In this document: positions 30,847-60,783 of the stretch, piece by piece
Position numbering within the stretch: the first letter of the stretch is position 1
Layout: every line of letters begins with the position of its first letter
Source of the DNA: Granulosicoccus sp.
GTDB lineage: Bacteria > Pseudomonadota > Gammaproteobacteria > Granulosicoccales > Granulosicoccaceae
Length of the DNA stretch: 64,000 nucleotides
NCBI GenBank assembly: GCA_020627685.1
Contig: JAHDGK010000001.1
Coordinates: 76,084-140,083 of the forward strand
Reading direction: 5' to 3'
Translations under genes and position numbers: made by a program
Notes under the pieces: model-generated
Seen by the model: only the letters and a program-made list of their open reading frames with translations
The model's database searches: none
Told to the model about the DNA's origin: nothing

Positions 30847-32295
30847 TCAGAGCTCCGGCAGGAATCGTTCAGGCGTTCCACGCTTAGTATCACGAAGTTG
30901 TCTAATGCGTGCAAGGCATTCTCCCGTCCCCAATAATAAAACCCCGAGACCCAATAGTATTAGCGATACATTCCAGGGGATCCAATGACTTAAATGGCTT
31001 TGTACCCAGAGGTTAAATCTGTCCCAAAGGTTTCCTTGAATAGCAAGGTCCGCGAGTAGGTCGGCCCTATCGGGTAGCCCCACATTGATTCTTCGAGCCG
31101 GAATGATCGCCTCTTTTATATCTTGAGTATTGGTATTGAACCAGACAACCCTGACCGTATCCAGAAACACTGGAATTGGGCTTTGTGCCACCATTCGATA
31201 AGTGAATGTAGCTGTGGAGACAGGAGTGCCCTGATTCATGCTCTGGCTGCGTTGTTGATTGATCAAGGTGCTGCTGATTGCACGACTTTCCAAGGGTGTG
31301 ACATCTGGTAGGTGATTTGCCAATACGTCGCTGGCTGACAATGTAATGGTACGAATAATTTCATCACCTGCGGAGAGCTCCCTCGGATCTTTTGACCACT
31401 TATCAACAAGAGAAACTTGGGTTGCTGGCAGCCACCATTGTGATGCGCTTTGTGCAATGTTTATGTTCAGTTCACCGCCTTCTAGTGAACGGTTAAAATC
31501 ACTGCGTTGAGTGCGTGATTTTATGGTTGTACCACTCCAGCTAATGTCATCCACTGTGTGTGTACCTGAGCGTTGTGGAAATAGGTGATACCGCCACGCA
31601 ACAATTCGAAAGCTTTGAATTGAACCATCATCGAGAACTGTCTCTTCGGTCGTCCGTCGCTCTTCAAATTCTTTGAGAATATCGAAGCCTTCAAAAGACG
31701 GTAATTCCAGCTGCTCTTCAAAAATAGGGTGTTTATGTCGAAGTTTAATATCGGCGATGATGTGCTGCCCGACGAACGCATCTGTTGTGGCGGTTGGTTC
31801 CTCTATGTCAGAGTATTGCAAGATTTCGCCGTTATCCAACGTGTAAGTAATATCGATGGATAAGTCGTCGTCTTGAGGTTGCCATTGGGTATCGGCTTGC
31901 GGTTGCACATCCACAATGAGCGTGTTGGATGTGACGAGGCCTCGAATACTATCTGCGCTCAAGGGCCCAAAGAAAGCCCGGCCTTCTTCTTTGGGGATAA
32001 ATTCCATACGTCGAAGCTTTACTTCTACGACGCGCCCTTCGATTACGGCTATACGAGTACCCGTTGTTTCTCGCAGTAGATCGGCATATTTAAACAGAGC
32101 GCTCACATCCAGAGGTTCGAGTAGCCCTACCGCCTCTACATCAATGATTATGCTATCGCCCAGGTAGATGGTTTCGCTGTCGCTGATTAGCGTGATGCCG
32201 GGTTCGACGGTAGCCGCTTGAGCGGATGAACAATGCAGGGTGAGGGCAAGCAGTAATACGGTGTATATCGTTTGTACGCGTGAGAGCAGTGTCAC
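30847..32295 (-). CDS. BatD-like protein
   Basis: 482 residues: signal peptide (VQTIYTVLLLALTLHCSSAQA), a long periplasmic beta-rich region with BatD character (VEVKLRRMEFIPKEEGRAFF, SFEGFDILKEFEERRT), and one C-terminal membrane helix (VSLILLGLGVLLLG) followed by a short cytosolic tail. BatD is thought to present substrates or partners of the MoxR-VWA complex in the periplasm. It overlaps the TPR gene by 4 bp and is the last gene of the eight-gene operon. Confidence 0.85.
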   Translation of the reverse strand: MTLLSRVQTIYTVLLLALTLHCSSAQAATVEPGITLISDSETIYLGDSIIIDVEAVGLLEPLDVSALFKYADLLRETTGTRIAVIEGRVVEVKLRRMEFIPKEEGRAFFGPLSADSIRGLVTSNTLIVDVQPQADTQWQPQDDDLSIDITYTLDNGEILQYSDIEEPTATTDAFVGQHIIADIKLRHKHPIFEEQLELPSFEGFDILKEFEERRTTEETVLDDGSIQSFRIVAWRYHLFPQRSGTHTVDDISWSGTTIKSRTQRSDFNRSLEGGELNINIAQSASQWWLPATQVSLVDKWSKDPRELSAGDEIIRTITLSASDVLANHLPDVTPLESRAISSTLINQQRSQSMNQGTPVSTATFTYRMVAQSPIPVFLDTVRVVWFNTNTQDIKEAIIPARRINVGLPDRADLLADLAIQGNLWDRFNLWVQSHLSHWIPWNVSLILLGLGVLLLGTGECLARIRQLRDTKRGTPERFLPEL

Positions 32296-33206
32296 CAGTT
32301 ACTACCTCCGTCCGGGGCGCTTTGCCCTGCAGTGCGACGGCGCTTAAGCTCTAATTGGATGCGCCGTTGGAGATATAGTTGAGAGTCATGCGAAATTCGA
32401 TTAAGCCATTGTGTGGTGGCTTGTTCTGCTTCTAATGACGCCCTCATGCCAGCGGCTTGTGATTCATCTGCGGGTGTATCAGTTTCCGAGCCACCAGAAG
32501 GCCGGTTAGCCTCGCGGGTATCAGAGCTCTCACCTTGTACTGCACCACCACCGTCCTGATTTTCATCATTCGGTAATTGTTGTTTACTGGCTTCAGCACC
32601 CTTGCCGGATTGAGCATCTGACTGTGGCCCCATGGTTTGCGCGCCGGGATCATCGGATTTACCCGTAGGAGTCTCCTTCACGTCGCTTTGCTCATCGCCG
32701 CCCTGGCCATCGCCCTGTTCATCCGGTTCGGCCTCGGTGTCGAGTTTTTCTATTTCATCTCCTTCGGGATTGCGGCCACTTCGCTTTTTGTTATCGTCTT
32801 CGGCGGCTAAGAGCTGTCGCATGATGTCGGCGTTGTAGGAGGCATCATCGAGCGTGGGATCCATGGATAAGGCTTGCAGGTAGGCATCCAGTGCTAACGC
32901 GTAATAGCCTAGCTTTACATAGCTATTGCCCAGATTGAAGACTGACACTGCATCGTTCGCTCGCACAAAGGCCTCTGCCGCTCGCCACCATTGTGAAGAG
33001 CGATACAGGGCAACACCTTTCCAGGCCGGGTCTGTAAATATCTCTCCTGCCTGGGCGTATTTTCCTTCGTTAAATAAACGATGGGCCAATACGTTATCGT
33101 CGGCATGTGTAATACCCACAGGTGTCAGCAATAAAAATAAAGTTATGCAGCGGCAGTAGAAACGGCTTCGGATACTCAGTTGATTTGAGTTCATAGGACG
33201 TTTCAT
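32292..33206 (-). CDS. TPR protein of MoxR/VWA operon (BatC/MxaK-position)
   Basis: 304 residues with an export signal near the N-terminus (FYCRCITLFLLLTPVGITHA). One or more TPR units follow (SVFNLGNSYVKLGYYALALDAYLQALSMDP), then an acidic, Gln/Gly/Ser-rich low-complexity linker of about 110 residues, and a short basic C-terminus. In BatBCE systems the TPR protein sits with VWA proteins in the membrane complex. It overlaps both neighbours by 4 bp. The alternative start is Met5. Confidence 0.8.
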   Translation of the reverse strand: MKRPMNSNQLSIRSRFYCRCITLFLLLTPVGITHADDNVLAHRLFNEGKYAQAGEIFTDPAWKGVALYRSSQWWRAAEAFVRANDAVSVFNLGNSYVKLGYYALALDAYLQALSMDPTLDDASYNADIMRQLLAAEDDNKKRSGRNPEGDEIEKLDTEAEPDEQGDGQGGDEQSDVKETPTGKSDDPGAQTMGPQSDAQSGKGAEASKQQLPNDENQDGGGAVQGESSDTREANRPSGGSETDTPADESQAAGMRASLEAEQATTQWLNRISHDSQLYLQRRIQLELKRRRTAGQSAPDGGSNW

Positions 33207-34141
33207 GATCTGGCCTCTTCACGAAAGAGAGAGAGCAAGATTGGGATGATAAAAATCAACAACCAGTGGGACTGTAAACGCCAGATAAGTGCTTCTAAGT
33301 CGCTGTGAGTAGAAGGGTCTGCTTCATCACTAAGCTGAAGCTCATCGAAATCAAGTACGCCAAATCGGTTTGTGAATATTGCTTTGCCATTGCCGGAGTT
33401 TGCCAAATCCTCGGCAGCTTTTATATTAACGGCAGTTTCAGACTCTTCAGTGTTATTGATGTCTGAACCGAATACCAATAAATTCAAAGTGTGCCCGGCT
33501 GAGGCTAGGAATTGCGCCGCGGCAATACTGGATTTTCCTATGCCGCCGGTGTCGGTCAGCAAGATAACATTGGCCTGAATGAAGTTGCTTCCCTCTATTA
33601 CTGAGGACGATAATGACAGGGCTCTTGTCAGGTTAGAGCCCTCTAACGGAATCACGCCGTGTTCCAATAGTGCTGCGTGTTCATTGAATACGGACCTGTC
33701 GAATGCCGGAGGTGCAACCAGGAACGCATCACCGGCATATAGAATAAGTGAAATGGGTCGGGCACCTGCTGCGTCCGATAGATACGCCAGGGCTTCTCGT
33801 GCCGCACTGAGTCGGGACGGAACAATATCGTTCAGGGTCATGGAGCGCGATACATCGACTAGTACTACCCATCCGGTGCTGTGACGCCACGTATTGTCAT
33901 CACTCTGACGGAGCACGGGTTGGCTTAAGGCTATGGCTGTAACTGCAGCCCCCAGAAGTGTCAGATTCCAGCGAGACCGACGACGATGTTGGCCACCTAG
34001 ATAGTTAAAAACCTGCGGAGCAATGATCTTCGCCCAGGCACTGTGCGATGACGTTTGCCGGAAATAGAAGGCAGCGATCAGACAAACTATTGCCAATGCA
34101 AGCCATAAGGGCTGTAAAAACTGCAATGCACCGATGCTCAC
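33203..34141 (-). CDS. VWA domain membrane protein (BatB-like)
   Basis: 312 residues from the GTG at 34141, whose GTGA overlaps the stop of the upstream VWA gene; an upstream ATG at 34204 would require a 67-bp overlap. Two N-terminal membrane helices (LQPLWLALAIVCLIAAFYF, LTLLGAAVTAIALSQPVL) flank a short loop, then a von Willebrand factor A domain with MIDAS DVSRSM, and a C-terminal helix (LLIFIIPILLSLF). VWA proteins of this layout partner MoxR ATPases. Its twin is encoded next to it. Confidence 0.88.
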   Translation of the reverse strand: MSIGALQFLQPLWLALAIVCLIAAFYFRQTSSHSAWAKIIAPQVFNYLGGQHRRRSRWNLTLLGAAVTAIALSQPVLRQSDDNTWRHSTGWVVLVDVSRSMTLNDIVPSRLSAAREALAYLSDAAGARPISLILYAGDAFLVAPPAFDRSVFNEHAALLEHGVIPLEGSNLTRALSLSSSVIEGSNFIQANVILLTDTGGIGKSSIAAAQFLASAGHTLNLLVFGSDINNTEESETAVNIKAAEDLANSGNGKAIFTNRFGVLDFDELQLSDEADPSTHSDLEALIWRLQSHWLLIFIIPILLSLFREEARS

Positions 34142-35100
34142 GACCTGGCTCTCTGTTGGTATGCCAGAACGCATAAGCAAGTCAACAATATGTACAATGG
34201 CCAATGTCGTAAATCGTGCCGAAGTATGACCGGAGGTGCATTCACTTCACTACGCTCCAGTGTGTCAATGGTGACGTAAATATCTTGTAAATCATCGTAG
34301 GTTTTTGCACGAAAAAACTCACCTGATGATTCCTGAGCTACCGCGATGAGTGTGTCTTCATCTAAATCTGCTGATTGTGCGACTGCGAAGCCGCTAAGTT
34401 CTTTATCCTCACTGCCCATGGCAATGGTATGAATTCTTATGCCCATCGATTTTGCAAAGCTTGCCGCGCTTTCAGGTTCAACGGAACCGGCGTTATTGGT
34501 TCCGTCGGAGAGTAAAACAATCGCCTTTTGGGTTGATGGGTCTGAAGAAAGTGTTTGTATGGAAAGGCCAATAGCATCCCCTATCGCCGTAGATCTACCT
34601 GCCATGCCAATGCCTGCGCTATCGAGAATGCTGCTGACCGCGTTGAGGTCGAATGTAAGCGGCGATGCGATGAAAGCCTGCTTGCCATAGAGAACCAAGC
34701 TGATTCTGTCGCCTTGGCGTTTGTTAATAAACTCAGAAGCCACTCGTTTAACCACAGAAAGCCTGTCAAGTGTTTCGCCGTTAAGCGTAAAGTCTTTACG
34801 TTCCATACTGCCCGAGACATCAACGACGAGTGATATGGCACGTCCACTGACAGGTTGGACGACAGTATCACCGGGGTGCCAGGGTTGTGCTAAAGCCACG
34901 AGTAATGAGATCCACGATACCCACAATAGTACCCATCGAATATCAATAATTCTGTTGTGGCTTGTACTTACCTCATTTAACGCTTCACCTAATGCAGTAG
35001 GTATGCGAATGCCGATGTCGGTTGGGCTGGAACGCAAGAGGTTGGCCAATACAGGTAGTGGCAGTAGTAGAAGTGCCCATGGCCAATCAACGTTTATCAT
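34138..35100 (-). CDS. VWA domain membrane protein (BatA-like)
   Basis: 320 residues with an N-terminal helix (WPWALLLLPLPVLANLL), a second helix (WVLLWVSWISLLVALAQPW), a VWA domain with intact MIDAS DVSGSMERKD and a later VLLSDGTNNAG, and a C-terminal helix. It matches BatA/MxaC-type proteins. The ATG overlaps the DUF4381 stop (ATGA). Both VWA proteins retain the metal-ion site, so both can bind ligands via divalent cation. Confidence 0.9.
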   Translation of the reverse strand: MINVDWPWALLLLPLPVLANLLRSSPTDIGIRIPTALGEALNEVSTSHNRIIDIRWVLLWVSWISLLVALAQPWHPGDTVVQPVSGRAISLVVDVSGSMERKDFTLNGETLDRLSVVKRVASEFINKRQGDRISLVLYGKQAFIASPLTFDLNAVSSILDSAGIGMAGRSTAIGDAIGLSIQTLSSDPSTQKAIVLLSDGTNNAGSVEPESAASFAKSMGIRIHTIAMGSEDKELSGFAVAQSADLDEDTLIAVAQESSGEFFRAKTYDDLQDIYVTIDTLERSEVNAPPVILRHDLRHWPLYILLTCLCVLAYQQRARS

Positions 35101-35579
35101 TGAGCGCTTAAGTTCTGATTAGAACGATTGGGAAGTTTTTTGATGAGTTTGGCGATCTTGTCGCAGAGCGATAGATACGCGTCCGGTTGTAGACTGTTGT
35201 TACGATAAAGCTCACTGCCGAAGATTCTTCCTTGATCCGTTGAAAACCATTCGGTTGAAAAGTGCTGGTCTAGTTTTGCAAGCCATGCATCTCCGTGTAG
35301 CTCATTTCCATCATCCATTCTATGCAGCATTAACTGTCTAAGTGCCTTTGCAAGTTTCAGTGTTCCTGGCTGTGCGTCAAGCTTGCGCGCTTGCATAACG
35401 ATTTGAAGTGCTTCTCGTCGCCATCCTTCTTTGCGCCTTTTCCATCTAAGATAAAGCACTAAAACAATCAACAATACAAGGCAAAGGTTTGCAGCAATAA
35501 GTCCTATCGATGTTGAGGCAGGAGCCAGTGGCTCTTGAATATCTTTTAACGAATTGAGTAAGGCCTCTGTATCACTCAT
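35097..35579 (-). CDS. DUF4381 membrane protein
   Basis: 160 residues with one membrane helix (GLIAANLCLVLLIVLVLYLRW) preceded by a short periplasmic stretch with LKDIQEPLAP and followed by a cytosolic helical part. DUF4381 proteins are regular members of MoxR-DUF58-VWA operons and occupy the place of MxaA in methylotroph mxa clusters. It overlaps the genes on both sides by 4 bp. No activity is known. Confidence 0.85.
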   Translation of the reverse strand: MSDTEALLNSLKDIQEPLAPASTSIGLIAANLCLVLLIVLVLYLRWKRRKEGWRREALQIVMQARKLDAQPGTLKLAKALRQLMLHRMDDGNELHGDAWLAKLDQHFSTEWFSTDQGRIFGSELYRNNSLQPDAYLSLCDKIAKLIKKLPNRSNQNLSAQ

Positions 35580-36619
35580 GGCAGAAAACCATGATGGCGC
35601 AGTGAGCTGACTACCTGATTGTTACCTTCATGAGCGCCAACTATGCTCATCATTGATTCTTCTAGGAGAATCTGACGTTGTCGTTTCATCGCTAATAAGG
35701 TTTCTATTACCCGCTCGCTATCTCTCTTTCCGAGAAGTGCCAGCCGCGTAGTCTTTGAGCGATTCGGCTGGATAGAGGTGTTGTCAGGATCTTTATAGCC
35801 GTAGCGTCCAACCGGTAGTCCAGTATTGATGAGCTCGTCGTCAACAGTAATAGCGATTTGATTGCCGCGCATCGATAACAAATAAAGGTGTTTTTTGAAT
35901 TGTCTGCCACAACGGTTGAAAGGACTGAGCCAGAAAATGTTTTTAGATTTCTCTGTTCGTTGTAGTAACCACTCTGCTACCTGGTCAAGGTTGACACCTG
36001 TTTGTGGCGCGTCTTGTTCTGATGGAGGTAATGGAATAATCGAGTCGCTTACTGCATCGTTTAAAAGTTCGTCTGATGTATCTGCGTGTTTGAGATCAGT
36101 GTCACTAAGGCTTAGCTGTGTCTCTTTATAAGCACGGGCGATAAGCGCACAGCTGTCTATTGCAGACTGGTGACTGGTACCGGATTTGCCAAGGCGAATA
36201 CCCTCATCGGTTGCAATGAGTATTTGCGCTTTGCAACCGCCATCGGCGGCCTGCCATAGAAGTCGAGCAGCGAGACGTCCAACTCTCACTGCTTGCAACT
36301 GAGTGCTACCCGCAAACATAGCGTCTCTAAAGTCAACAATTAAAGTGATTTGAAATTCGCGTTCTTCGCGATATAGCCTTGTGTGTATCGAGTTTGTACG
36401 AGCGCTGGCTTTCCAGTCAATATGGCGAATGTCGTCACCGGCGCTATAGTGTCGAAGGTCGTCGAAATCTGTGCCTTGACCGCGTCGAGTACCGCGAAAA
36501 GGTCCTAGCCATAGTCCGCGTCCGGTAGGTTGCCGAGTCGATCCTGTTTTGATGGAGTGGCGCTCGTTGAGTAACGTTTCTACAGTTAGGTTAACGGATT
36601 CATGATCGTGTGCATTCAT
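35576..36619 (-). CDS. DUF58 domain protein (MxaS/YeaD-like)
   Basis: 347 residues, soluble. The DUF58 signature is GDDIRHIDWKASART with the preceding FRGTRRGQGTDFDDLRHYSAG. The C-terminal half is VWA-like with a degenerate metal site. In mxa operons the homologous MxaS accompanies the MoxR ATPase MxaR. It lies 8 bp after moxR and overlaps the DUF4381 gene by 4 bp. Confidence 0.9.
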   Translation of the reverse strand: MNAHDHESVNLTVETLLNERHSIKTGSTRQPTGRGLWLGPFRGTRRGQGTDFDDLRHYSAGDDIRHIDWKASARTNSIHTRLYREEREFQITLIVDFRDAMFAGSTQLQAVRVGRLAARLLWQAADGGCKAQILIATDEGIRLGKSGTSHQSAIDSCALIARAYKETQLSLSDTDLKHADTSDELLNDAVSDSIIPLPPSEQDAPQTGVNLDQVAEWLLQRTEKSKNIFWLSPFNRCGRQFKKHLYLLSMRGNQIAITVDDELINTGLPVGRYGYKDPDNTSIQPNRSKTTRLALLGKRDSERVIETLLAMKRQRQILLEESMMSIVGAHEGNNQVVSSLRHHGFLP

Positions 36620-36627
36620 CGTCTGAA

Positions 36628-37617
36628 CTACACGCGAGGGGTCGCCCTAATAATGTCCTGAATGATAGAACGATTGGTCAGGCCTTTCGCTCGTGCTTTG
36701 TAGTCTAGAGAAATTCTCCCGCACAAAATCTCAGGCGCTAAGGAGGCAATGTCGTTTGGGTCTACGTGATCACGTCCATCTAGCCAGGCTGCAGCCTGAG
36801 CGGCGATTGCGATATTGATTGATGCTCTGGGGCTGGCGGGTTGTGAAATATTTTCTGTGTGAATTCCGCCGGCACCATAGCCACGGGTCGCACCCACAAT
36901 TCTAACGATGTAGTCGCGAACCGCCTCGGAGAGAAATACACCAGCAACTTCTTGTCGCGCAGCAATGACGGTGTTTTTATCGCAGGTCTGGGCAGAGAAG
37001 GTTTTGTCCTCGTCGCCGGATTGCTCACTGAGTACCTGATCGAGTATTTGTCTTTCGTGTTCGACATTGGGTAGTTCGATGTTGACAAAAAACATGAAGC
37101 GATCAAGCTGCGCCTCTGGCAAGGGGTAGGTACCTTCATGTTCTATAGGGTTCTGAGTTGCCGCCACTAAAAAGGGTTCGTCAAGTTTTCGAGTGATGCC
37201 ACCCGTTGAAATCTGATGTTCCCCCATGGCTTCGAGTAACGCGCTCTGCACTTTAGGTGGAGCTCTGTTTACCTCATCAACTAAAATAATGTTATTGAAC
37301 AGTGGCCCAGGAAGAAAGGTAAATTCGCCGCTTTGTTGCTGGTATATATCTGTCCCGGTTATATCAGCGGGTAGTAAATCCGGCGTTGCCTGTATACGGA
37401 CAAAGCTGACGTCAAGTGCTTGCGAGAAAAGTTTTATAGTCCGCGTCTTTGCCACACCTGGAGGACCTTCTATCAGTATATGACCCTTCGAAAGCAAAGC
37501 GATTAGCAGCCTGTCAACCAGTGGCTCTAGTCCGACAAGATGTTTGAGTAAACCATTTTTGGCCGATAGGAATTGCTCGCGAGCAGATGATGTTTTCTGT
37601 GCGTCTATTTCGCTCAT
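36628..37617 (-). CDS. MoxR-family AAA+ ATPase
   Basis: 329 residues. Walker A is EGPPGVAKTRT, Walker B IILVDEVNRAPP, sensor 1 VAATQNPIEHEGTYPLPEAQ and the arginine-finger region DRFMF. MoxR ATPases act as chaperones that assemble or load metal cofactors, named after methanol dehydrogenase maturation in Paracoccus. The start codon shares a base with the stop of the upstream CXXCW gene (TAATG), a sign of tight translational coupling. Confidence 0.95.
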   Translation of the reverse strand: MSEIDAQKTSSAREQFLSAKNGLLKHLVGLEPLVDRLLIALLSKGHILIEGPPGVAKTRTIKLFSQALDVSFVRIQATPDLLPADITGTDIYQQQSGEFTFLPGPLFNNIILVDEVNRAPPKVQSALLEAMGEHQISTGGITRKLDEPFLVAATQNPIEHEGTYPLPEAQLDRFMFFVNIELPNVEHERQILDQVLSEQSGDEDKTFSAQTCDKNTVIAARQEVAGVFLSEAVRDYIVRIVGATRGYGAGGIHTENISQPASPRASINIAIAAQAAAWLDGRDHVDPNDIASLAPEILCGRISLDYKARAKGLTNRSIIQDIIRATPRV

Positions 37618-38687
37618 TATGGCCGTATGATTATTGAAGGGTAAAGCCTGTTCTTGGCGCCTTCGTCTATAAATTCCATTAAGTCTATGGGGTGACTATA
37701 GGGTTCTGGAGGGTTAGCCAGTACGTTTAAATCACCTTGTAGTAAATTCCCGGACAGCGTGCCATCTGCATTCATAGAGAGCTTGTAGTAAACGCCGTTC
37801 CAAGCATCAATGCCGAATGACTTTGGCGATTTCCAGATAAACAAAAGTTGGTATTCCAACTCCGTTAAATCATCTTCTGTGATGGTTTTCTTCAATTCAT
37901 ACGGGTAGGGGAGGTAGCAGAACCACTCCGCTGATCCTGTCAGACACCGAAAGGGTCGCATGGAGAGAAACTGATCTTCGAAACCGGCGCTGTCAATGTC
38001 TACATCGACACCATAAGCTCCGCCTTCCTGGCCGGAAAAAACCACTGTGCCTATATTAAATTCCTCACCTTTTTGATCTATCAGGTAGATGCTGGCTGAG
38101 TCAGGAAAGCCTGGGCCCGGTGTGGTGTCATCCAGAAAATTCACGGGCTGCACAGCTTGCAATTCAAATCCAGCCTCAAGCCAGCCATCTGTGCCCAGTG
38201 GATACCAATGCACGGCCGTGTAGCCCCATTCAATGGCTCGTCTGGATGCGTTCCAGCTCTGCCAGCAATCGGCGGTGCAGTAGAACGCCACCTTGCGGCT
38301 AAGCTCTCCCTCAGTCAGTCTGGCAAGGTTCCGTTTGAAATAATCTTCCGCTTCCGCGTCCAATGTGCCCCTCCCGACTTCGGGAAGCCAGACTCCGCCT
38401 GGAATAGTCGAACGTTTTTCGTTTGTCACCCAGAAACCATCGAGGGGATCAGGGCCTAAGCCTTTGGGGGGGTAGACATCAATAAAAACGATATCGCCTG
38501 CGCCATGCATTTGTGCTGCACTTTCGTTGCTAAGCGTAACGCCTCCAGGTACATCAGCAGGTACGGGGGCCCGGTATCGCTCCATTCTCAAACCGGTTTC
38601 CGGATCGACGGCGTAGCCTTCCAGAGCATGAGCGAGGCCTGCAAGGCCAAAAAGTAAGAGAGCAGCGAGTACGTTTTTAACAAACAT
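37617..38687 (-). CDS. PQQ-dependent catabolism-associated CXXCW-type rhodanese-like protein
   Basis: 356 residues with a signal peptide from the ATG at 38687 (MFVKNVLAALLLFGLAGLAHA). The rhodanese-like domain has IVFIDVYPPKGL and FYCTADCWQSWNASRRAIEWG, then VHWYPLGTDGW, as in the TIGR03865 group that accompanies quinoprotein alcohol dehydrogenases. Here the motif reads C-x3-C-W. About 170 further residues form an extra C-terminal domain with FRCLTGSAEWFCYLPYP that resembles nothing I can name. It leads the operon and is coupled to moxR by a one-base overlap. Confidence 0.85.
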   Translation of the reverse strand: MFVKNVLAALLLFGLAGLAHALEGYAVDPETGLRMERYRAPVPADVPGGVTLSNESAAQMHGAGDIVFIDVYPPKGLGPDPLDGFWVTNEKRSTIPGGVWLPEVGRGTLDAEAEDYFKRNLARLTEGELSRKVAFYCTADCWQSWNASRRAIEWGYTAVHWYPLGTDGWLEAGFELQAVQPVNFLDDTTPGPGFPDSASIYLIDQKGEEFNIGTVVFSGQEGGAYGVDVDIDSAGFEDQFLSMRPFRCLTGSAEWFCYLPYPYELKKTITEDDLTELEYQLLFIWKSPKSFGIDAWNGVYYKLSMNADGTLSGNLLQGDLNVLANPPEPYSHPIDLMEFIDEGAKNRLYPSIIIRP

Positions 38688-38809
38688 ATTTATAAGTATG
38701 CCTTTTGTGCCAAAGAAACGCTGTGGTACCAAAGTGCAAGCTAGGCCCATGATGGATAAAAATCGCATTATGTGTACACTGAAACGAGTCTTGGGAGGTG
38801 GAAATTAAT

Positions 38810-39796
38810 ATGTTTGTTCGATTACGTCGTTTTCTAAAAGTTGCAGGTGTTGTATCCGCACTGTCCCTGTTGAGCACCAATACCTTTGCCAGTGAACCTG
38901 TCGTGCGGGTTGGCGTACTGAAGTTCGGTACGGTCAACTGGGAGCTGAAGTCCATGAAGCATCACGGCTTGGACAAGGCAAACGGTTTTTCTCTGGAAAT
39001 TGTCCCGTTTGCCGGTGGTGACGCAACTCGCATTGCGTTGATGGGTGGAGAGGTTGACATTATCGTCTCCGATTGGCTTTGGGTATCACGTCAGCGATCA
39101 GAGGGGCGAGACTTTACCTTTTCACCGTACAGTTCCTCTGTGGGCGCCATCATGGTTCCAGGTGGAAGCGATTTGAAAAATTTAGGTGAGCTTCGCGGTA
39201 AGAAAATTGGTGTGGCTGGCGGGCCGTTGGATAAAAGCTGGTTGTTGCTACAGGGTATGGCCAAACAAGATTTTGATATGGACTTGGCTGGTGAAAACGA
39301 AATCGTTTTTGGTGCGCCTCCTTTGTTGGCAGAAAAAGCTCGTGATGGAGAGCTAGACGCCGTATTGAACTACTGGCATTTTTGCGCAAGGTTGGAGTCA
39401 GTCGGGTTTACTCGCTTGGTCAGTGCAGAAGATGCAGCCAACGCGCTGGGTTCCACCGGGCCTGTATCAGCCATTGGCTATGTTTTTGATGAAGCGTGGG
39501 CTGAAAATGGCTTGGCAGCGGCTTTTGTTAATGCCTCAAACGCGACCAAAGAAATTATGGGTACTTCCGATGAGGAATGGACCCGCTTGTCTGAAAGTGG
39601 TGCCATCAAAGATAATCCTGCAGCTTTGCAAGTCCTTCGGGACAGATTCCGAGAAGGCATTCCAGCAAGGGCTTTTGAAGATGAAGTCGCAGATGCAGCT
39701 GTCATCTATGGACTACTCAGTGACTTAGGTGGGAAAAAGCTAGTGGGTAATTCCCAAACCATGGCTGAGGGTACTTACTGGGTGGGTGCGCAGTAA
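38810..39796 (+). CDS. NitT/TauT-type ABC transporter substrate-binding protein
   Basis: 328 residues with a signal peptide (LKVAGVVSALSLLSTNTFAS). The type II periplasmic binding fold is indicated by VVRVGVLKFGTVNWELKSM, IALMGGEVDIIVSDW and LRGKKIGVAGGPLDKSWLL, as in SsuA/TauA/NMT1 proteins. GGAGGTGG precedes the ATG at 38810. The substrate is not readable. It starts 122 bp from the divergent CXXCW gene, with which it probably shares a regulatory region, suggesting membership in the quinoprotein regulon. Confidence 0.85.
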   Translation: MFVRLRRFLKVAGVVSALSLLSTNTFASEPVVRVGVLKFGTVNWELKSMKHHGLDKANGFSLEIVPFAGGDATRIALMGGEVDIIVSDWLWVSRQRSEGRDFTFSPYSSSVGAIMVPGGSDLKNLGELRGKKIGVAGGPLDKSWLLLQGMAKQDFDMDLAGENEIVFGAPPLLAEKARDGELDAVLNYWHFCARLESVGFTRLVSAEDAANALGSTGPVSAIGYVFDEAWAENGLAAAFVNASNATKEIMGTSDEEWTRLSESGAIKDNPAALQVLRDRFREGIPARAFEDEVADAAVIYGLLSDLGGKKLVGNSQTMAEGTYWVGAQ

Positions 39797-39849
39797 ATCG
39801 ATACGTGCATTAATGGCTGAACGCATCTTGTACTCAATAAAATCTTAAG

Positions 39850-40611
39850 ATGCGTTCTCGCCTACAAAAGATAGGATTGGTGGGTGCATCGCTAACCACG
39901 TTTGTTCTGTTATGGGCGCTGCTGGCTAATCATCTCAACGACAACGCACTACCACCTCCGATCGACGTGTGGAATTCGTTGTTAGTTGAGTATCGCTCGG
40001 GTGAATTGTTTCATCATTTAGGGATGACGTTGCTACGGGTGTTGGCGGCATTCATTGTGGCCATGGCTGTGGGCTCCGCTATTGGAATCTGGTTGGGCAT
40101 GCACAAGCTGTCCAACCGAATTCTCGACCCGTGGCTAATACTCTTGCTCAACATACCCGCGTTGGTCATCATCGTGCTGAGCTACATCTGGTTTGGTTTG
40201 AACGAAGCTGCGGCTGTGGGTGCGGTGGCGCTTAACAAAATTCCTAATGTAGTTATCACACTACGTGAGGGTGCGCGTTCTCTGAACCCAGAATATTCAG
40301 AAATGGCCCAGGTCTATCGATTTGGTTTTATAAAACGACTTAGGCACGTCGTTATTCCACAGCTTCAACCCTTCTTTGCTGCCGCCACGCGATCCGGAAT
40401 TTCCCTGATCTGGAAAATAGTATTAATTGTCGAATTGCTTGGGCGATCCAACGGCGTGGGTTTTCAAATTCACCTCTATTTTCAGTTGTTCGATGTTGCC
40501 ACCATCCTTGCGTATACCTTAGCCTTTGTCGCAGTGATGTTGTTTGTTGAGTATTGTCTGCTGCAACCACTGGATAATCATTCCAATCGCTGGCGTGCCT
40601 CTCATGAGTGA
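39850..40611 (+). CDS. NitT/TauT-type ABC transporter permease
   Basis: 253 residues with about six membrane helices and the binding-protein-dependent (EAA-loop) motif EYSEMAQVYRFGFIKRLRHV. It resembles SsuC/TauC permeases. The stop overlaps the ATG of the ATPase gene. Spacing of 53 bp from the binding protein suggests a three-gene operon. Confidence 0.9.
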   Translation: MRSRLQKIGLVGASLTTFVLLWALLANHLNDNALPPPIDVWNSLLVEYRSGELFHHLGMTLLRVLAAFIVAMAVGSAIGIWLGMHKLSNRILDPWLILLLNIPALVIIVLSYIWFGLNEAAAVGAVALNKIPNVVITLREGARSLNPEYSEMAQVYRFGFIKRLRHVVIPQLQPFFAAATRSGISLIWKIVLIVELLGRSNGVGFQIHLYFQLFDVATILAYTLAFVAVMLFVEYCLLQPLDNHSNRWRASHE

Positions 40612-41323
40612 AAACGCGCTGGTTGTCGATGTCCGTGATCACATTTTTAAAATGGGCCGTGGTGAGCAGTTAAAAGCCATCGAGCATGTCAATTTTTCAC
40701 TGCCAGCTAATTCTTTCACGTGTATTGTCGGACCATCCGGTTGCGGGAAAACGACTGTCCTGCGATTAATTCTGGGATTGGATAAGCACAATAATGGGCG
40801 TGTTGAATTACTAAGGGACGGCCCTGTCTCAGCGGTGTTTCAGGAGCCCAGATTATTACCTTGGCGGACGGTTGAGCAAAATATTCGCTTGGTTCTTCCA
40901 CCTTCGCGGCAACAGGAATCCCTAGACGATCTGTTTGAAGTATTAGGTTTGGCGGAATTGCGCGGCTTTTACCCCAATCAGTTGTCATTGGGTTTGGCAA
41001 GGCGGGTGTCGCTTGCCCGGGCTTTTGTTCTGGAGCCTCAGTTGTTAATCCTTGACGAGCCCTTTGTGTCGCTGGATGCTTCAACCGCTGAGCGTTTGCG
41101 CGAGCTCTTGTTGACGCTATGGCAGGCGCGTCCCACTACCGTGCTCATGGTTACCCACGATATTGCCGAGGCAGCCGCACTTGCAGATACCGTATTGGTG
41201 TTCACTCCAAGACCTTCCCGAGTAGTGGGTGTTGTAGATATTGATACACCCCGTGAATCAAGAAACACCGCTGTTATCGGTGATATTCAACAACAAATTT
41301 CAGCATTGTCGGTGACTGGTTAG
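40604..41323 (+). CDS. NitT/TauT-type ABC transporter ATPase
   Basis: 239 residues. Walker A is GPSGCGKTT, the Q-loop lies in VFQEPRLLPWRT, the signature is degenerate (LSLGLARRVSLARAF instead of LSGGQ), Walker B is LLILDEPFVSLD and the switch His is in VTHDIAEAA. It resembles SsuB/TauB. The ATG at 40604 overlaps the permease stop (8 bases), favouring translational coupling over the longer upstream reading. Confidence 0.9.
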   Translation: MSENALVVDVRDHIFKMGRGEQLKAIEHVNFSLPANSFTCIVGPSGCGKTTVLRLILGLDKHNNGRVELLRDGPVSAVFQEPRLLPWRTVEQNIRLVLPPSRQQESLDDLFEVLGLAELRGFYPNQLSLGLARRVSLARAFVLEPQLLILDEPFVSLDASTAERLRELLLTLWQARPTTVLMVTHDIAEAAALADTVLVFTPRPSRVVGVVDIDTPRESRNTAVIGDIQQQISALSVTG

Positions 41324-42567: not shown

Positions 42568-42581
42568 CAAGCTGATTTTTT

Positions 42582-51782: not shown

Positions 51783-52595
51783 CTATGCGCCGGCAGTGCG
51801 CCCCGCGCGGAATCGTCTTGCCGGGTTATATGACCAGCAGGCGACGAAGAAAAAGACTAGCGTGCACCCAATGACAACGGCCAGAGAAATACCGTTTATC
51901 TGGCCATAGAAAGCAAATCGAATGGACTCGACTGCGTGTGTGAATGGGTTGTACTCACAAACCGTTGCAAGCCACTCGCTGGATTCACGCATCTTCCATA
52001 TCGGATACAAAGCCGAAGACATAAAAAACAAGGGGAATATAACGAAGTTCATAACCCCGGCAAAGTTTTCCAGTTGCTTAACGACCGATGCTATTAGAAG
52101 CCCCAATGCTCCGAGCATGATGCCCGTAATAATAAGAACCGGGAGCGCTTGAAACGCGCCGTCGTAGGCGAAGTCTATCCCTGCTATACGGGCAGTTATA
52201 AGAAAAGCACTAATCTGTAATAACGAGACCATGACGCCAGCTAACAACTTGCACAGCAGTAAATACCAGCGAGCCAAGGGCGCGGTTAGCAGCACTCTCA
52301 TGGATCCCATTTCCTGATCGTAGACCATGGATAGTGAAGACTGCATACCGTTAAACAGTTGAATCATGCCAATAAGCCCAGGCACAATATAAACTTCATA
52401 GGTAATGTAAGTTTCATACGGCGGGATTATCGATAAGCCAAGTGCGGCCCTAAATCCTGCGGCAAATACAACCAGCCAGAGTAAAGGTCGAACCAGTGCA
52501 GCGATAAAACGTTCACGTTGATGAACGAAGCGCATGAGCTCTCGGCGTACTATGCCAAACAGTGCATAGCCATGATTGGCCACTAAAGCCTTCAT
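51783..52595 (-). CDS. ABC-2 type permease of the PQQ alcohol dehydrogenase system
   Basis: 270 residues with six hydrophobic segments and the ABC-2 pattern (RRELMRFVHQRERFIAALVRPLLW, QEMGSMRVLLTAPL). It matches the TIGR03861 group, PedC/LutF-like permeases encoded with quinoprotein alcohol dehydrogenases and implicated in lanthanide-dependent growth. It overlaps the ATPase gene by 4 bp. Confidence 0.85.
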   Translation of the reverse strand: MKALVANHGYALFGIVRRELMRFVHQRERFIAALVRPLLWLVVFAAGFRAALGLSIIPPYETYITYEVYIVPGLIGMIQLFNGMQSSLSMVYDQEMGSMRVLLTAPLARWYLLLCKLLAGVMVSLLQISAFLITARIAGIDFAYDGAFQALPVLIITGIMLGALGLLIASVVKQLENFAGVMNFVIFPLFFMSSALYPIWKMRESSEWLATVCEYNPFTHAVESIRFAFYGQINGISLAVVIGCTLVFFFVACWSYNPARRFRAGRTAGA

Positions 52596-53365
52596 GGGTT
52601 CATCACCTGTTGCAACAAAGCAGAAAAATCATCAACACCATTTTCTTTGAGTAGCTGTCGGGCGTTGCCATCCTTAACCAGCTTCGATTCATGCAGTATT
52701 ACCACGCGGTCGGTGTCATGAATCTCATCAACCAGATGAGTGGCCCACAGTATGGCGCATCCTTGTGTTTCGGGTAGTCGGTGAATTTGCTCAATGAGTT
52801 CTGTGCGGGTAGGTATATCAAGGCCGACGGTCGGTTCGTCCAATAGCAATATGCTCGGCTGATGCAAGGTTGCACGAATGATCTCAACCCGTCTTCTATG
52901 GCCACCATTTAATGCACGGACTTTGTCGTCTTTACGCTGTAAGAGATCCATTCGCGAAAGTGCAACTTCAATTCTCGATTTAGATTCTGATCGGCTAATT
53001 CCATGCAGAGAACAGAAGTAACTCAGGTTTTGAAAGACGGTTAAATCTAAATCGAGAGTTTGGGATTGGAAAACGATGCCCAGTGGTGCAAGTGCTCTGG
53101 CATCGTTTAAACGTGACTTTCCATTGATATGAATATGTCCCGTGTCCGGTGCGAACAAACCGCAAATTAATGAGAATAGTGTGGTCTTACCTGCGCCGTT
53201 GGGGCCCAGCAAAATTACACTCTCGCCTTGCTTAATACATAGCGAAACACTGTCCAGCGCAACCTTCTTGCCGTAGTGAAAGGTGACACCGGCTAAATCC
53301 AGTGCGGGCGTGGCACTAACGATGGCCTCATTTTGAGTGTCAGTCGTGAAAGCAGGGGTGTTCAT
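52592..53365 (-). CDS. ABC ATPase of the PQQ alcohol dehydrogenase system
   Basis: 257 residues. Walker A GPNGAGKTT, a divergent signature (LNGGHRRRVEIIRA), Walker B LLLDEPTVGLD and the switch His in WATHLVDEIHD. It resembles the TIGR03864 group (PedB/LutE-like). It is divergent from the cytochrome c-550 gene with 77 bp between start codons. The probable partner binding protein and propeller lie about 34 kb away at 16.6-19 kb. Confidence 0.87.
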   Translation of the reverse strand: MNTPAFTTDTQNEAIVSATPALDLAGVTFHYGKKVALDSVSLCIKQGESVILLGPNGAGKTTLFSLICGLFAPDTGHIHINGKSRLNDARALAPLGIVFQSQTLDLDLTVFQNLSYFCSLHGISRSESKSRIEVALSRMDLLQRKDDKVRALNGGHRRRVEIIRATLHQPSILLLDEPTVGLDIPTRTELIEQIHRLPETQGCAILWATHLVDEIHDTDRVVILHESKLVKDGNARQLLKENGVDDFSALLQQVMNP

Positions 53366-53442
53366 AGTTCAAAAGTACCATGTTGAGCCCGCTTGGGTTT
53401 GCGCTATCCTGTGTCCATAATTTTTCTCAGGCTTTTCTTTTC

Positions 53443-53889
53443 ATGAAATATCGTTTGATTTTATTAGCAGCCTTGGGCTTGGCTGCATCACAGATGTTCT
53501 TCGTAAAAACAGGTTTGACGCACGGTGATGTGCAGCCGCAAGCGGTTGACACAGAGGGTCTCGAAGCGCTGCCTGAAGAGATCGCACTTGAAAACCCTTA
53601 CAGACTTGCAGGCGGTGAACAGTATGAACTAGCCAAGAAGATTGGCGCCTCAGCGTACAACTCTAACTGCGCCCGTTGCCACGGCCTAGAAGCGATTTCA
53701 GGAGGCATTGCGCCGGATCTACGCATGCTGGAGGACGGTGAGTTCGGCGATGAGTGGTACATGGAAAGAGTTCTTAAAGGCTATAGCCAAAATGGCGCGT
53801 ACAAAATGCCGCCGTTTGCACAAATCCTAAGCCAGGAAGCCATGTGGGCCATTCGTTCATACACGGAAACTCAGCCGCGACCGGAGTAG
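53443..53889 (+). CDS. Cytochrome c-550 (PedF-like)
   Basis: 148 residues with a signal peptide (MKYRLILLAALGLAASQM). The heme site is CARCH and the likely axial Met is in AYKMPPFAQ. The family-specific leader THGDVQPQAVDTEGLEALP and NPYRLAGGE are those of the PedF cytochrome that takes electrons from PQQ alcohol dehydrogenase. It starts the plus-strand run that ends in the dehydrogenase, in the same order as Pseudomonas pedF-PP_2676-2677-2678-pedH. Confidence 0.9.
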   Translation: MKYRLILLAALGLAASQMFFVKTGLTHGDVQPQAVDTEGLEALPEEIALENPYRLAGGEQYELAKKIGASAYNSNCARCHGLEAISGGIAPDLRMLEDGEFGDEWYMERVLKGYSQNGAYKMPPFAQILSQEAMWAIRSYTETQPRPE

Positions 53890-53922
53890 GTGTATTCTTC
53901 TGGTTTTGATTTGGGGAAGAGC

Positions 53923-54813
53923 GTGAGTAGTTTGACTGCAATCTCGCCACATTCAGGTGTCTTAGGACTACGTCGCTCCTTGTGCGTATTCGCCCTGCTC
54001 GTGGCAACGCTTATAGGTAGTGCTGCTCATGCAAGGCCGGTTGATGAAGTTGTCGACAGTGGAAAACTGGTCGTATTTGCGTACAGCGATTACGCCCCGT
54101 ATTCGTGGATGGAAGACGGTGAGCCGCGTGGAATCGATGTAGATATTGCTAAGCACTTTGGCAAGAGCTTAGGTGTGGAGGTTGAATTTCTTATCAGAGG
54201 TGCTGATGAGAATCTGGACGACGACCTGCGGGTCAATATATGGAAAGGCGATCTCATTCATCGAAAAGTTGCTGATGTGATGATGCATGCCCCGTTTGAT
54301 CGTGAGGTGGATGTCAGAAATGAATTAGCGGTGCTGACAGCTCCCTATTTTCAGGAACAAATAGCCTTGGTTTACGACCAGGACGTTCACCCAAGCGTTG
54401 AGACTTTCGGGCGTTTTGTATCCAAGCCGATTACTGTCGAGCTGGATACGGCAGGCGATTTTTTTCTATCCAATGCTTTTCGAGGTCGCCTGCAGCAAAG
54501 TATCCAGCGTGGAAGAACTTTTGCGGATTCCCAGAGTCTATATACCAGCGGTGAAGTTGGTGCATTGCTAGGGTCGCGTGCTCAAGCAGAGTGGGTGGCC
54601 TTCAAAGCGACGAACATAAATTCTGCGATTGCGCAGCCGCCCATGCCCGGAATAGTGCGAACAGGCTGGCCTATCGGAATAGCGATAAAGCACGATAGTC
54701 GGGATTTGGGCTACGCTTTGGGTGATGTTCTGACAGAGCTTACTGAGTCAGGCGAAATAACGTCCATTTACGCGAAATACGGTGTGGAATGGCTACCGCC
54801 TAAATTGGATTAA
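53923..54813 (+). CDS. Quinoprotein dehydrogenase-associated substrate-binding protein (XoxJ/MoxJ-like)
   Basis: 296 residues from the GTG at 53923, which has GGGGAAGAG upstream; an alternative GTG at 53890 overlaps the previous stop. Signal peptide around SLCVFALLVATLIGSAAHA. The type II binding fold begins VVFAYSDYAPYSWMEDGEPRG and continues VDIAKHFGKSLGVEVEF. Proteins of this group (TIGR03871) assist assembly of PQQ dehydrogenases in the periplasm, as XoxJ and MxaJ do. Confidence 0.87.
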   Translation: MSSLTAISPHSGVLGLRRSLCVFALLVATLIGSAAHARPVDEVVDSGKLVVFAYSDYAPYSWMEDGEPRGIDVDIAKHFGKSLGVEVEFLIRGADENLDDDLRVNIWKGDLIHRKVADVMMHAPFDREVDVRNELAVLTAPYFQEQIALVYDQDVHPSVETFGRFVSKPITVELDTAGDFFLSNAFRGRLQQSIQRGRTFADSQSLYTSGEVGALLGSRAQAEWVAFKATNINSAIAQPPMPGIVRTGWPIGIAIKHDSRDLGYALGDVLTELTESGEITSIYAKYGVEWLPPKLD

Positions 54814-56614: not shown

Positions 56615-56787
56615 GCTCTGTCATCTCCCTGTAAAGAGAGGGCCACAGTAGACCTTTGGTCACTATGGTCGTACCCGCATTTTGGCTAGACTCCTCGATA
56701 GCGGGTTATTTGCGCCGTCATTACAACAGTACTTTCCGTTGTGCATCCACGGGTTGTAATTTACGAACACCATTTGAGGAGTTGTTA

Positions 56788-58572
56788 ATGAACCGAAAAC
56801 AAACACTGCTGGCTTTTGCCGGCTCCCTGGCATTGGGTGTCGCTGGATTCAGCACATCGGCCACAGCGCTGGATGTCACTATTGATGACATCATGAATGA
56901 CCAATCCACAGGCGGGGACATACTGTCATACGGACTGGGGCCACGTGCACAACGTTACAGCCCACTCGATACTCTCAACAAAGACAACATCAAGAACCTT
57001 TACCCGGTTTGGTCTTTCTCGTTTGGTGGTGAAAAGCAACGCGGTCAAGAGTCGCAGCCTTTGATCAAAGACGGCGTTATGTACGTCACCGGTTCTTACA
57101 GCCGTATGTGGGCTATCGATATAGCGTCTGGTGAAGAACTCTGGCAATACGATGCCCGTCTACCAGAAGGTATTCTGCCTTGCTGCGACGTGGTAAACCG
57201 TGGTGCTGCCATCTTAGGTGACAAAGTATTCTTTGGTACGCTCGATGCAAAAATTGTTGCGCTCGATGCAAAAACCGGCAAGGTTATTTGGCGTAAGAAA
57301 ATTGGTGATTACGAAGCAGGCTATTCCTACACGGCTGCGCCACTCATCGTACCGACTGAAGCGCACGGTCCTCTCATTCTGACCGGTAACTCCGGTGGTG
57401 AATTCGGTATTGTCGGTGCGGTAGAAGCCCGTCATCCTGATACAGGCGAACTCATCTGGTCTCGTCCGACCATTGAAGGCCATATGGGAACACTCAATGG
57501 CAAAGAGTCCACCATGACAGGCACAGTTAACGAGTCTTGGCCCGGTGACATGTGGAAGAACGGTGGTGGTGCTACTTGGTTGGGTGGAACCTACGATCCG
57601 GCGACTAAGCTAGCGTACTTCGGAACAGGGAACCCTGCGCCATGGAACAGCTACCTGCGTCCCGGTGATAACAAGTGGACATCTTCACGAGTTGCCATCG
57701 ACGTGGAAACCGGCAACATTGCCTGGGGCTTTCAAACCACGCCTCATGATGGTTGGGACTATGATGGTGTAAACGAGTTCATCTCTTTTGATATGGAAAA
57801 AGACGGTGAGACGATTCAGGCAGGAGCTACCGCAGATCGAAACGGCTTTTTCTATGTTCTCGATCGAACCAACGGTGACTTCATTTCAGCTGCGCCATTT
57901 GTTCAAAATATCAGTTGGGCAAAAGGCATGGATGAGAATGGCCGTCCATTGTTCGATCCGGAAAACCGTCCGGGTGACCCGACTGAATCTGCCGATGGCA
58001 AGAAAGGTAAATCCATATTTGCTATTCCTAGTTTCCTAGGGGGCAAAAACTGGATGCCTATGGCTTACTCACAAAAAACCAGCAACTTCTATATCCCTTC
58101 TAACGAATGGGGCATGGATTTGTGGAATGAGCCTGTAACGTACAAGAAGGGCGCAGCCTATCTTGGTGCCGGTTTCACCATCAAGCCTATCTTTGATGAT
58201 TACATCGGTTCACTAAAGGCGATGGATCCTGCAACAGGTGAAATTAAATGGGAATACAAAAACAAAGCACCTTTATGGGGTGGCGTTTTGACTACCGCTG
58301 GTGGTTTGGTATTCACAGGAACACCTGAAGGCTACTTGAAAGCGTTTGACGATGAGACTGGTGAAGAGCTCTGGAAATTCCAAACGGGCACCGGCATCGT
58401 ATCTTCTCCGATCACTTGGGAACAAGACGGCGAGCAGTACGTCGCGATCGTCACCGGATGGGGTGGAGCGGTTCCGTTGTGGGGCGGTGAAGTGGCCAAG
58501 GTTGTCAGCTATCTCAACCAAGGCGGATCCGTCTGGGTCTTCAAGATCCCTGAAGGTCTAGCATCGCGCTAA
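56788..58572 (+). CDS. PQQ-dependent alcohol dehydrogenase, lanthanide type (PedH/ExaF-like)
   Basis: 594 residues with a signal peptide ([21 protein letters not shown]). The eight-bladed quinoprotein propeller shows the vicinal disulfide Cys132-Cys133 ([12 protein letters not shown]), metal-ligand candidates Glu205 (GGEFG) and Asn282 (GNPAPWN), and the catalytic Asp324 in [12 protein letters not shown]. The extra Asp326 two residues on marks lanthanide-dependent enzymes (XoxF, PedH) as opposed to Ala/Ser in calcium enzymes. GAGGA is 7 bases before the ATG. It oxidises alcohols to aldehydes in the periplasm. A strong terminator follows. Confidence 0.93.
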
Positions 58573-58709: not shown

Positions 58710-59390
58710 ATGACTGATCTAACACAAGTTTTGATCATTGATGATCACCCGTTGTTCCGTGAAGCGTTAAGTGCTGCGGTAAGTCGCGCCTACCCTGATA
58801 CTCATTCACGAGAAGTAAGCACCTTGGAAGATGCCATAAACGAATTGGCCTCCAATCGTGATTTTGATATTGCCTTGCTCGATTTGAACATGCCGGGTGT
58901 TAACGGTTTTGAAGGTTTATTGCAGCTAAGAACGCTCCACCCTCGATTACCTGTGCTGGTGGTATCCGGTTTGGAAAACGAACAAATAATCGACGAGGCG
59001 ATAACCTATGGGGCAGCGGGGTTTTTGCCCAAGTCTCTGGGGCGCGAAGTGTTGGCCACAGCTATCGGCACTATTATGGCGGGTGATGTCTATGTGCCCG
59101 ATAAAATGCAACTAGACGAAGCCCCGGACGGTGCTGCTGAAAAAATTGAAATCATAGAACGACTGTTAAGTTTGACACCACAGCAGCTCAGAGTATTGTT
59201 TATGTTGCGTGAAGGACTACTTAACAAGCAAATAGCATACGAATTAGATGTCGGTGCAACAACTGTCAAAAAACACGTGTCTGAAATACTCAGAAAACTG
59301 CGAGTTTATAGTCGCACTCAAGCGGTTATTGAGGTATCAAAGTTAGATCAGGACGAGCTTTTTGATATGGAAAAGCGATTTCTTAATTAG
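58710..59390 (+). CDS. NarL/LuxR-type response regulator (ErbR/AgmR-like)
   Basis: 226 residues. Receiver domain with VLIIDDHPLFREAL, the phospho-Asp in LLDLNMPGVNG and the Lys in LPKS; LuxR helix-turn-helix with LTPQQLRVLFMLREG and NKQIAYELDVGATTVKKHVSEIL. ErbR/AgmR/PedR1 proteins of this type activate quinoprotein ethanol oxidation genes in Pseudomonas, and the gene directly follows the dehydrogenase. It has its own terminator upstream and is convergent with the nahK-like kinase. Confidence 0.88.
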   Translation: MTDLTQVLIIDDHPLFREALSAAVSRAYPDTHSREVSTLEDAINELASNRDFDIALLDLNMPGVNGFEGLLQLRTLHPRLPVLVVSGLENEQIIDEAITYGAAGFLPKSLGREVLATAIGTIMAGDVYVPDKMQLDEAPDGAAEKIEIIERLLSLTPQQLRVLFMLREGLLNKQIAYELDVGATTVKKHVSEILRKLRVYSRTQAVIEVSKLDQDELFDMEKRFLN

Positions 59391-59402
59391 TGAATTCATT
59401 CA

Positions 59403-60776: not shown

Positions 60777-60783
60777 GAAGTAT

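Follow-up and report, generated by a model that had tools for sequence, protein, structure and literature searches.

A Bat-type moxR operon led by a CXXCW gene is coupled to a PedH-like quinoprotein dehydrogenase in Granulosicoccaceae

Introduction

The mxa cluster of methylotrophs includes genes for calcium insertion, according to the available part of one account (PMC3615186). NorQ and NorD, a MoxR-class ATPase and its partner with a VWA domain and a metal ion-dependent adhesion site (MIDAS), are needed for iron insertion, as stated in the accessible text of another (PMC9976466). A rhodanese-domain protein associated with lanthanide- and pyrroloquinoline quinone (PQQ)-dependent alcohol dehydrogenases (ADHs) has also been described already (PMC12997753, in the portion available). 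Bat operons, which carry moxR as well, are widespread and of uncertain function, and the delivery of cofactors to lanthanide-type quinoprotein dehydrogenases is an open question.

We analyzed a 64,000-nucleotide stretch of Granulosicoccus sp. (GenBank assembly GCA_020627685.1, contig JAHDGK010000001.1, positions 76,084 to 140,083), referred to here as the window. It holds an eight-gene Bat-type operon led by a CXXCW gene and, about 19 kb from its moxR, a PedH-like PQQ ADH that we call ADH-A. The coupling of the two is real, conserved and family-specific, and it touches the question of cofactor delivery.

Results

The operon runs on the minus strand from 38687 to 30847. Coordinates and family matches confirmed the eight tightly packed genes described in an earlier reading of the sequence (the original prediction). 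The operon genes and ADH-A are as follows:

37617..38687, minus strand: CXXCW protein of 356 amino acids, with a signal-peptide-like start, a rhodanese-fold domain with CTADCW and a C-terminal beta-rich domain (TIGR03865)
36628..37617, minus strand: MoxR AAA+ ATPase, Bat-side lineage by its tree (PF07726, E 2.3e-59; Walker A GPPGVAKT, Walker B ILVDE)
35576..36619, minus strand: DUF58 protein, probably cytoplasmic (PF01882; no transmembrane segment found)
35097..35579, minus strand: DUF4381 protein with one transmembrane segment, C-terminus probably cytoplasmic by charge (PF14316)
34138..35100, minus strand: VWA protein 1, BatA-like, membrane anchored, MIDAS DVSGS (PF00092)
33203..34204, minus strand: VWA protein 2, BatB-like, MIDAS DVSRS, likely start 34141 (PF13519)
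32292..33206, minus strand: TPR protein, BatC-like, likely exported as judged by eye (TPR families)
30847..32295, minus strand: BatD-like protein with a C-terminal transmembrane segment (PF13584)
56656..58572, plus strand: ADH-A, PedH-like PQQ ADH, WDYDG, likely start near 56770 (TIGR03075; closest structures PedH)

The junctions, in order, measured -1 (TAATG), +8, -4, -4, -67, -4 and -4 bp. The first of these is the TAATG coupling of the CXXCW gene to moxR that had been predicted. Overlaps of 1-4 bp, predicted at almost every junction, held for five of them; the +8 spacing makes the MoxR-DUF58 junction a small gap rather than an overlap, and the -67 bp between the VWA genes shrinks to -4 if VWA2 begins at GTG 34141. 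The content and order MoxR-DUF58-DUF4381-BatA-BatB-TPR-BatD fit the definition of a Bat operon, and VWA protein 1 scored 152 bits against the BatA_Lepto model, under its cut-off of 380. The DxSxS motifs of both VWA proteins and the Walker A and B motifs of MoxR were all intact. Kyte-Doolittle segments and charges placed transmembrane segments in DUF4381 and the VWA proteins and a terminal one in BatD, with none in MoxR or DUF58. We infer that the TPR and CXXCW proteins are exported and that the VWA domains are periplasmic.

To count co-occurrence, ADH-A was defined as at least 80% identity to the ADH of the window, and the operon was scored as present where an operon-type BatD exceeded 440 bits or where MoxR lay beside CXXCW on a truncated contig (G017, G028). 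The operon was found in 32 of 32 genomes of the family with ADH-A compared to 1 of 16 without it (48 genomes). The single exception, G008, is 86% complete and has an operon fragment and no ADH at E 1e-60; another genome, G047, was counted as operon-less, and counting it as positive would give 2/16. A Fisher test of this co-occurrence gave 1.5e-11 when related genomes were treated as independent; because the sampled genomes are related and adjacent genes can vanish together, the value is descriptive only. The original prediction had staked itself on conservation of the linkage in relatives, and the linkage was conserved.

At 23 of the 32 family operon loci all eight genes were present and in order, and the remaining nine were cut by a contig or stretch edge (a 33rd row, L077, was excluded as a stray match to a VWA gene). 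Here and below, the absence of MoxR, ped or PQQ genes at a locus refers to the retrieved stretch around that locus. Wherever ADH-A lay within the stretch, MoxR stood beside CXXCW (23/23), with 3.5-15.7 kb between ADH-A and CXXCW. A contig scan with the CXXCW protein returned 26 loci: 20 with MoxR next, from records titled Granulosicoccus, Granulosicoccaceae and, once, Chromatiales; five alphaproteobacterial loci with a quinoprotein but no MoxR; and L026, considered below with the C-terminal domain. CXXCW exceeded its cut-off in 33 of 48 family genomes. Outside the genome of the window, 40 family CXXCW places comprised 28 with MoxR next and one where a separate C-terminal-domain gene intervenes before MoxR, whereas 11 had none. 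Nine of these 11 had a XoxF-like ADH, 38-41% identical to that of the window; L080 had a PedH-like ADH and was cut 344 bases past CXXCW, and L076 had no ADH. MoxR was thus found at 0/9 family XoxF-like loci with CXXCW, eight of which had at least 1.9 kb downstream. The XoxF-like label was checked against structures for L087 and assigned by similarity and motif at the other loci. The L087 enzyme scored 897 bits to XoxF 6oc5 compared to 589 to 2d0v, the best listed of what we take to be the Ca-type methanol dehydrogenases.

The genome of the window had a single CXXCW gene; one TIGR03075 enzyme and four MoxR exceeded their cut-offs, and a search for MxaI (PF02315) gave no match. By a rough estimate, the chance of one of four MoxR genes lying as near to the ADH as observed is about 3%. 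A second, generic Bat operon is present on another contig (L010), and ped genes were found near 0/9 generic Bat operons of the family.

We then placed the operon by a MoxR tree of 42 sequences, which included 12 linked MoxR, ten from generic Bat operons of the family and ten MxaR from mxaI-bearing clusters. The 12 linked MoxR and the MoxR of G047 formed a clade (support 100/98). The ten generic Bat MoxR formed their own clade (99/98) excluding that of the window, and the ten MxaR a distant one (100/100, branch 5.95). Both of the former lie on the non-mxa side of the tree, so that the operon belongs to the Bat type rather than being a remnant of a mxa set. Membership of the mxa lineage was rejected from the tree together with the absence of MxaI.

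A second quinoprotein of the family also adjoined a moxR operon. In G019 (L138:4322-13995), a Bat-type operon continues directly into the genes of a Rieske protein and of a PQQ ADH (548 bits, WDWDE; nearest solved relative 6zcv, 346 bits). The same operon end was found in G001 (L137:250-5829), on a contig starting inside VWA2 and with an ADH 89% identical; the two loci belong to two genera of the family. In other genomes, outside the family, MoxR was found near 0/11 relatives of this ADH, all of which have the Rieske gene; one of the 11, G562, carries a mxa cluster with mxaR about 10 kb away. Two different quinoproteins in one family therefore adjoin a moxR operon, and relatives of each elsewhere lack a neighboring one. 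The G019 MoxR fell outside the ADH-A clade on a long branch (1.42), and a separate origin of the Rieske-ADH MoxR is likely from this placement.

The CXXCW gene belongs to TIGR03865, the PQQ-dependent catabolism-associated CXXCW proteins (181 bits, cut-off 128). Its product has a second domain, at about residues 186-356, that the original prediction missed. The predicted structure of the whole protein had a mean pLDDT of 82, and its N-terminal part is modeled as a rhodanese fold (GlpE 1gmx, Z 11.9, rmsd 2.1, 104 aligned). The CX3CW loop is conserved in this domain; sulfurtransferase activity is only putative. The C-terminal domain (window 37617-38132), predicted alone, was beta-rich with a pLDDT of 82 and has conserved residues FLSMRxF, two Cys, YPY and NG. 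Neither it nor three stand-alone homologues matched Pfam, and two of these gave no match in NCBIfam. Foldseek against the PDB returned unconvincing nitrobindin- and lipocalin-like barrels (best E 0.064), which gives no sign of a new fold.

Of the 20 window-genus genomes with CXXCW over the cut-off, 17 carry the C-terminal domain as a fusion to CXXCW; in L058 it has a gene of its own, placed between those for CXXCW and MoxR. It stands alone in L064, L066, L080 and L124, in the first three of them between PedG-like and SoxYZ genes. Among plasmids it was found in ten Ruegeria or Phaeobacter records, three of which were opened and had it divergent to a PQQ ADH. Fused to CXXCW, or alone next to PQQ ADHs, it occurs in both Alpha- and Gammaproteobacteria. 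It was present in 27 of 32 ADH-A genomes compared to 4 of 16 others (a weak broken match in G006 excluded), and it is not indispensable, since the complete genome G045 has ADH-A and the operon without it. L026 carries this domain only, beside what by eye is an apparent transposase gene. Stand-alone examples are as follows:

L026:586-1299
L201:8914-9468
L203:8917-9471

Outside the family, CXXCW exceeded its cut-off in 8 of 369 genomes of a class sample, the genome of the window included, and in 39 of 398 genomes of a phylum sample. Nine class-sample places outside the family had no MoxR (G242 was below the cut-off and L069 had only 166 bases downstream). The phylum sample gave 42 places besides that of the window, 41 of which were examined and had MoxR at 0/41. 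In all, 0 of 50 CXXCW loci examined outside the family were adjoined by MoxR. An association of CXXCW with quinoprotein clusters is therefore general, while in the samples taken a moxR operon led by CXXCW was confined to Granulosicoccaceae. Such a linkage, observed in one family, offers no explanation for Bat operons at large.

MoxR matched 266 plasmid records. Seven were opened. Five are annotated Rhodobacterales records, each with a compact operon of seven genes; another is an unannotated Methylobacterium record, and the last holds a generic Bat operon. On the plasmid of Ruegeria sp. AD91A (L152:5647-15591), the compact moxR operon is followed directly by genes for a response regulator, a FIST protein and a PAS protein/kinase, a set resembling the one that accompanies the PQQ ADH of this plasmid (L203).

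We take an Asp two residues past the catalytic Asp to mark lanthanide-type enzymes. ADH-A scored 784 bits against the methanol/ethanol dehydrogenase family, and its best solved relatives were 6zcw and 6zcv (831 bits); it has WDYDG where 1flg has WDFSG. Its sequence, with PedH nearest and the Asp in place, is that expected of the lanthanide-dependent PedH type; 6ZCW is a lanthanide-dependent PedH according to the available part of PMC11996626. The Asp was present in ADH-A of 31 of 32 genomes, and in the remaining one, G028, ADH-A is truncated in the stretch. The same Asp was found at 27 XoxF-like and 10 PedH-like ADH loci without MoxR, and three PedH-like loci, likewise without MoxR, had Ser at this position (counts are motif rows, minus matches to non-catalytic motifs and ADHs of other types). 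The Asp failed to separate linked from unlinked ADHs, and lanthanide type was rejected as a property tracking the operon. Eight family XoxF-like loci were readable, six of them in operon-bearing genomes and two (G006, G010) not; a MoxR encoded elsewhere could serve ADHs without a neighboring one.

The remaining features of the window include the ped-type cluster around ADH-A:

38719..38736, minus strand: promoter-like motif CACTTTGGTACCACNG upstream of the operon (conservation in linked family loci)
38798..41323, plus strand: divergent SsuA-type ABC importer with substrate-binding protein, permease and ATPase (adjoins CXXCW in many relatives)
51783..53365, minus strand: PedC/PedB-type ABC transporter (TIGR03861 and TIGR03864, both over cut-off)
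53440..53889, plus strand: cytochrome c550 PedF (TIGR04494, over cut-off)
53890..54813, plus strand: periplasmic binding protein, PedG/MxaJ-like by position and named by analogy with the available part of PMC12997753
54819..56614, plus strand: SoxYZ-like carrier and SoxH-like metallohydrolase of a quinoprotein relay (TIGR04557 and TIGR04558, over cut-off)
58710..62061: ErdR-like response regulator (plus strand), NahK/ErcS-like kinase (minus strand) and NosP-like FIST protein (minus strand), all below curated cut-offs

The motif CACTTTGGTACCACNG was the top-scoring site in the stretch and just upstream of CXXCW at 15 of 29 linked family loci, 8 of which had trained the matrix, and it has a single exact site in the genome of the window. 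This conserved motif, together with the signal-peptide-like stretch after 38687, led us to prefer the CXXCW start at 38687 over the upstream ATG at 38768. A regulon defined by the motif was rejected, with 7+10 two-mismatch matches in that genome compared to 15+22 in the reversed control and thus no excess. The SsuA-type importer recurs by CXXCW and quinoprotein clusters in Granulosicoccaceae and Alphaproteobacteria. Between it and PedBC, about 10 kb (window 41389-51760) encode a P450, CoA-transferase-like and thiolase-like proteins, a sigma-factor-like pair, a short-chain dehydrogenase/reductase and a 4-hydroxybenzoate monooxygenase, several of them named by eye; L016 and L043 lack this segment at the corresponding position, and L015 shows part of it. 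Downstream of BatD (window 27579-30704) lie genes for a YHS-domain protein, an EVE-like protein (by eye) and a helicase, in positions kept in L015 and L130.

Discussion

The conserved linkage, the co-occurrence with ADH-A, the second quinoprotein with a moxR operon and the intact motifs together lead us to propose that the operon is probably a dedicated maturation machine for the neighboring PedH-like quinoprotein dehydrogenase. Cofactor loading is most likely the step that it would serve, by analogy with MxaRSACKL and NorQD. As MoxR-class ATPases and VWA partners are needed for metal insertion in NorQ/NorD, and the mxa cluster has its calcium genes (both from the partial sources cited above), we favor ATP-driven remodeling of the exported apo-dehydrogenase for cofactor entry. 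In such a machine, cytoplasmic MoxR with DUF58 would act as a motor driven by ATP, and its stroke would be transmitted across the membrane by DUF4381 and both VWA proteins. The VWA domains, presumably periplasmic, would work with BatD, the TPR protein and the CXXCW fusion to keep the exported apo-enzyme open or correctly oxidized during entry of PQQ and the metal ion.

Several observations weigh against this proposal. Co-occurrence and linkage are not independent, as a single loss removes all of the genes, and the sampled species are related. G004, a genome of the family and 95% complete, encodes a PedH-like ADH with the lanthanide-type Asp (67% identity, WDYDG, 804 bits to 6zcw) and has neither the operon, nor CXXCW, nor the C-terminal domain. 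The orthologue-like operon of G047 (MoxR 60% identity, BatD 304 bits) lies on a different contig from the ADHs of that genome, one of which is PedH-like; it lacks CXXCW, and the 20 kb retrieved around it contain no ped gene. Elsewhere, MoxR was absent from the stretches around relatives of either ADH type, and none of the ped or PQQ genes of the query set lay beside the seven plasmid moxR operons opened. The separate origin of the Rieske-ADH MoxR is not firm because of its long branch.

Of the rival explanations, the main one is a redox or sulfur guard, in which CXXCW with SoxYZ and SoxH would form an active-site disulfide or clear sulfur adducts of PQQ, the Bat part assisting. It is favored by the rhodanese fold of the CXXCW protein and by a cluster that also encodes SoxYZ and SoxH, and disulfide and PQQ-adduct roles have been proposed for PP_2666, PP_2677 and PP_2678 (PMC12997753, in the part available). 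However, CXXCW loci elsewhere do without a nearby MoxR (0/41 in the phylum sample), so the guard leaves the MoxR part unexplained, and we regard it as possible but somewhat unlikely.

Insertion of a lanthanide ion into the dehydrogenase, a narrower form of the maturation proposal, is unlikely, and loading of lanthanide only is less likely than the redox or sulfur guard. The Asp in 31 of 32 ADH-A enzymes and the closeness to PedH (831 bits) are consistent with it, but the 27 XoxF-like and 10 PedH-like loci with the same Asp do without a neighboring MoxR, and a methanotroph whose deletion extends from mxaF into mxaC continues to use XoxF (PMC7104280, in the portion available). The unlinked ADHs, G004 and the deletion strain together give no sign that lanthanide-type enzymes generally need the operon. 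It may load metal into ADH-A itself, and that metal need not be lanthanide only. The original prediction, in which a Bat-type operon was recruited to mature the quinoprotein at 56.8 kb and perhaps to insert a lanthanide, therefore comes apart into two ideas: dedication to the enzyme is well supported by the coupling and by the second quinoprotein, and lanthanide loading is not supported, the Asp occurring equally in ADHs without MoxR.

A Bat operon of the ordinary stress or envelope kind, sharing a genomic island with the dehydrogenase by chance, would account for the Bat gene content and for the other contexts of the opened plasmid relatives, but is very unlikely given the separate generic Bat operon of the same genome, the clade of linked and G047 MoxR (100/98), the presence in all 32 ADH-A genomes and the linkage of two different quinoproteins to such operons.

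A broader idea can be raised tentatively: as substrate-specific cofactor loaders, MoxR-VWA machines may have become attached to quinoprotein dehydrogenases on three or more separate occasions, namely in mxa, in the ADH-A operon and in the Rieske-ADH operon. Within Granulosicoccaceae, CXXCW with its fused beta-rich domain would be the periplasmic part that meets the apo-enzyme, and part of the Bat family would thus be quinoprotein loaders. A full-text search, with most subscription papers outside its reach, found no literature in which a PedH-type ADH is tied to an operon of the moxR or Bat kind. One Bat-type operon now has a clear candidate client, and the second quinoprotein gives a further case for the same idea.

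Among known systems, the generic Bat (aerotolerance) operon moxR-batABCD of the family matches the operon of the window in gene kinds and order; the latter differs in its separate MoxR clade, its CXXCW lead and its linkage to a dehydrogenase. In the mxaRSACKL genes of methylotrophs, a PQQ dehydrogenase is likewise accompanied by a MoxR ATPase, a DUF58 protein (MxaS) and a pair of VWA proteins. Unlike these, the operon reported here lies far from MxaR in the tree, has no mxaI, is led by CXXCW and accompanies a sole TIGR03075 enzyme that is PedH-like. The ped cluster of Pseudomonas putida KT2440 shares PedH, PedF, PedG, SoxYZ, SoxH, PedBC, regulators and the rhodanese-domain protein PP_2666, which in our reading is the CXXCW protein, whereas the available parts of its gene table list no moxR operon (PMC12997753). 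NorQ and NorD resemble the system in pairing a MoxR-class ATPase with a VWA/MIDAS partner (PMC9976466, in the accessible text); there, however, two proteins serve iron and a membrane client, and here eight genes would serve an exported one.

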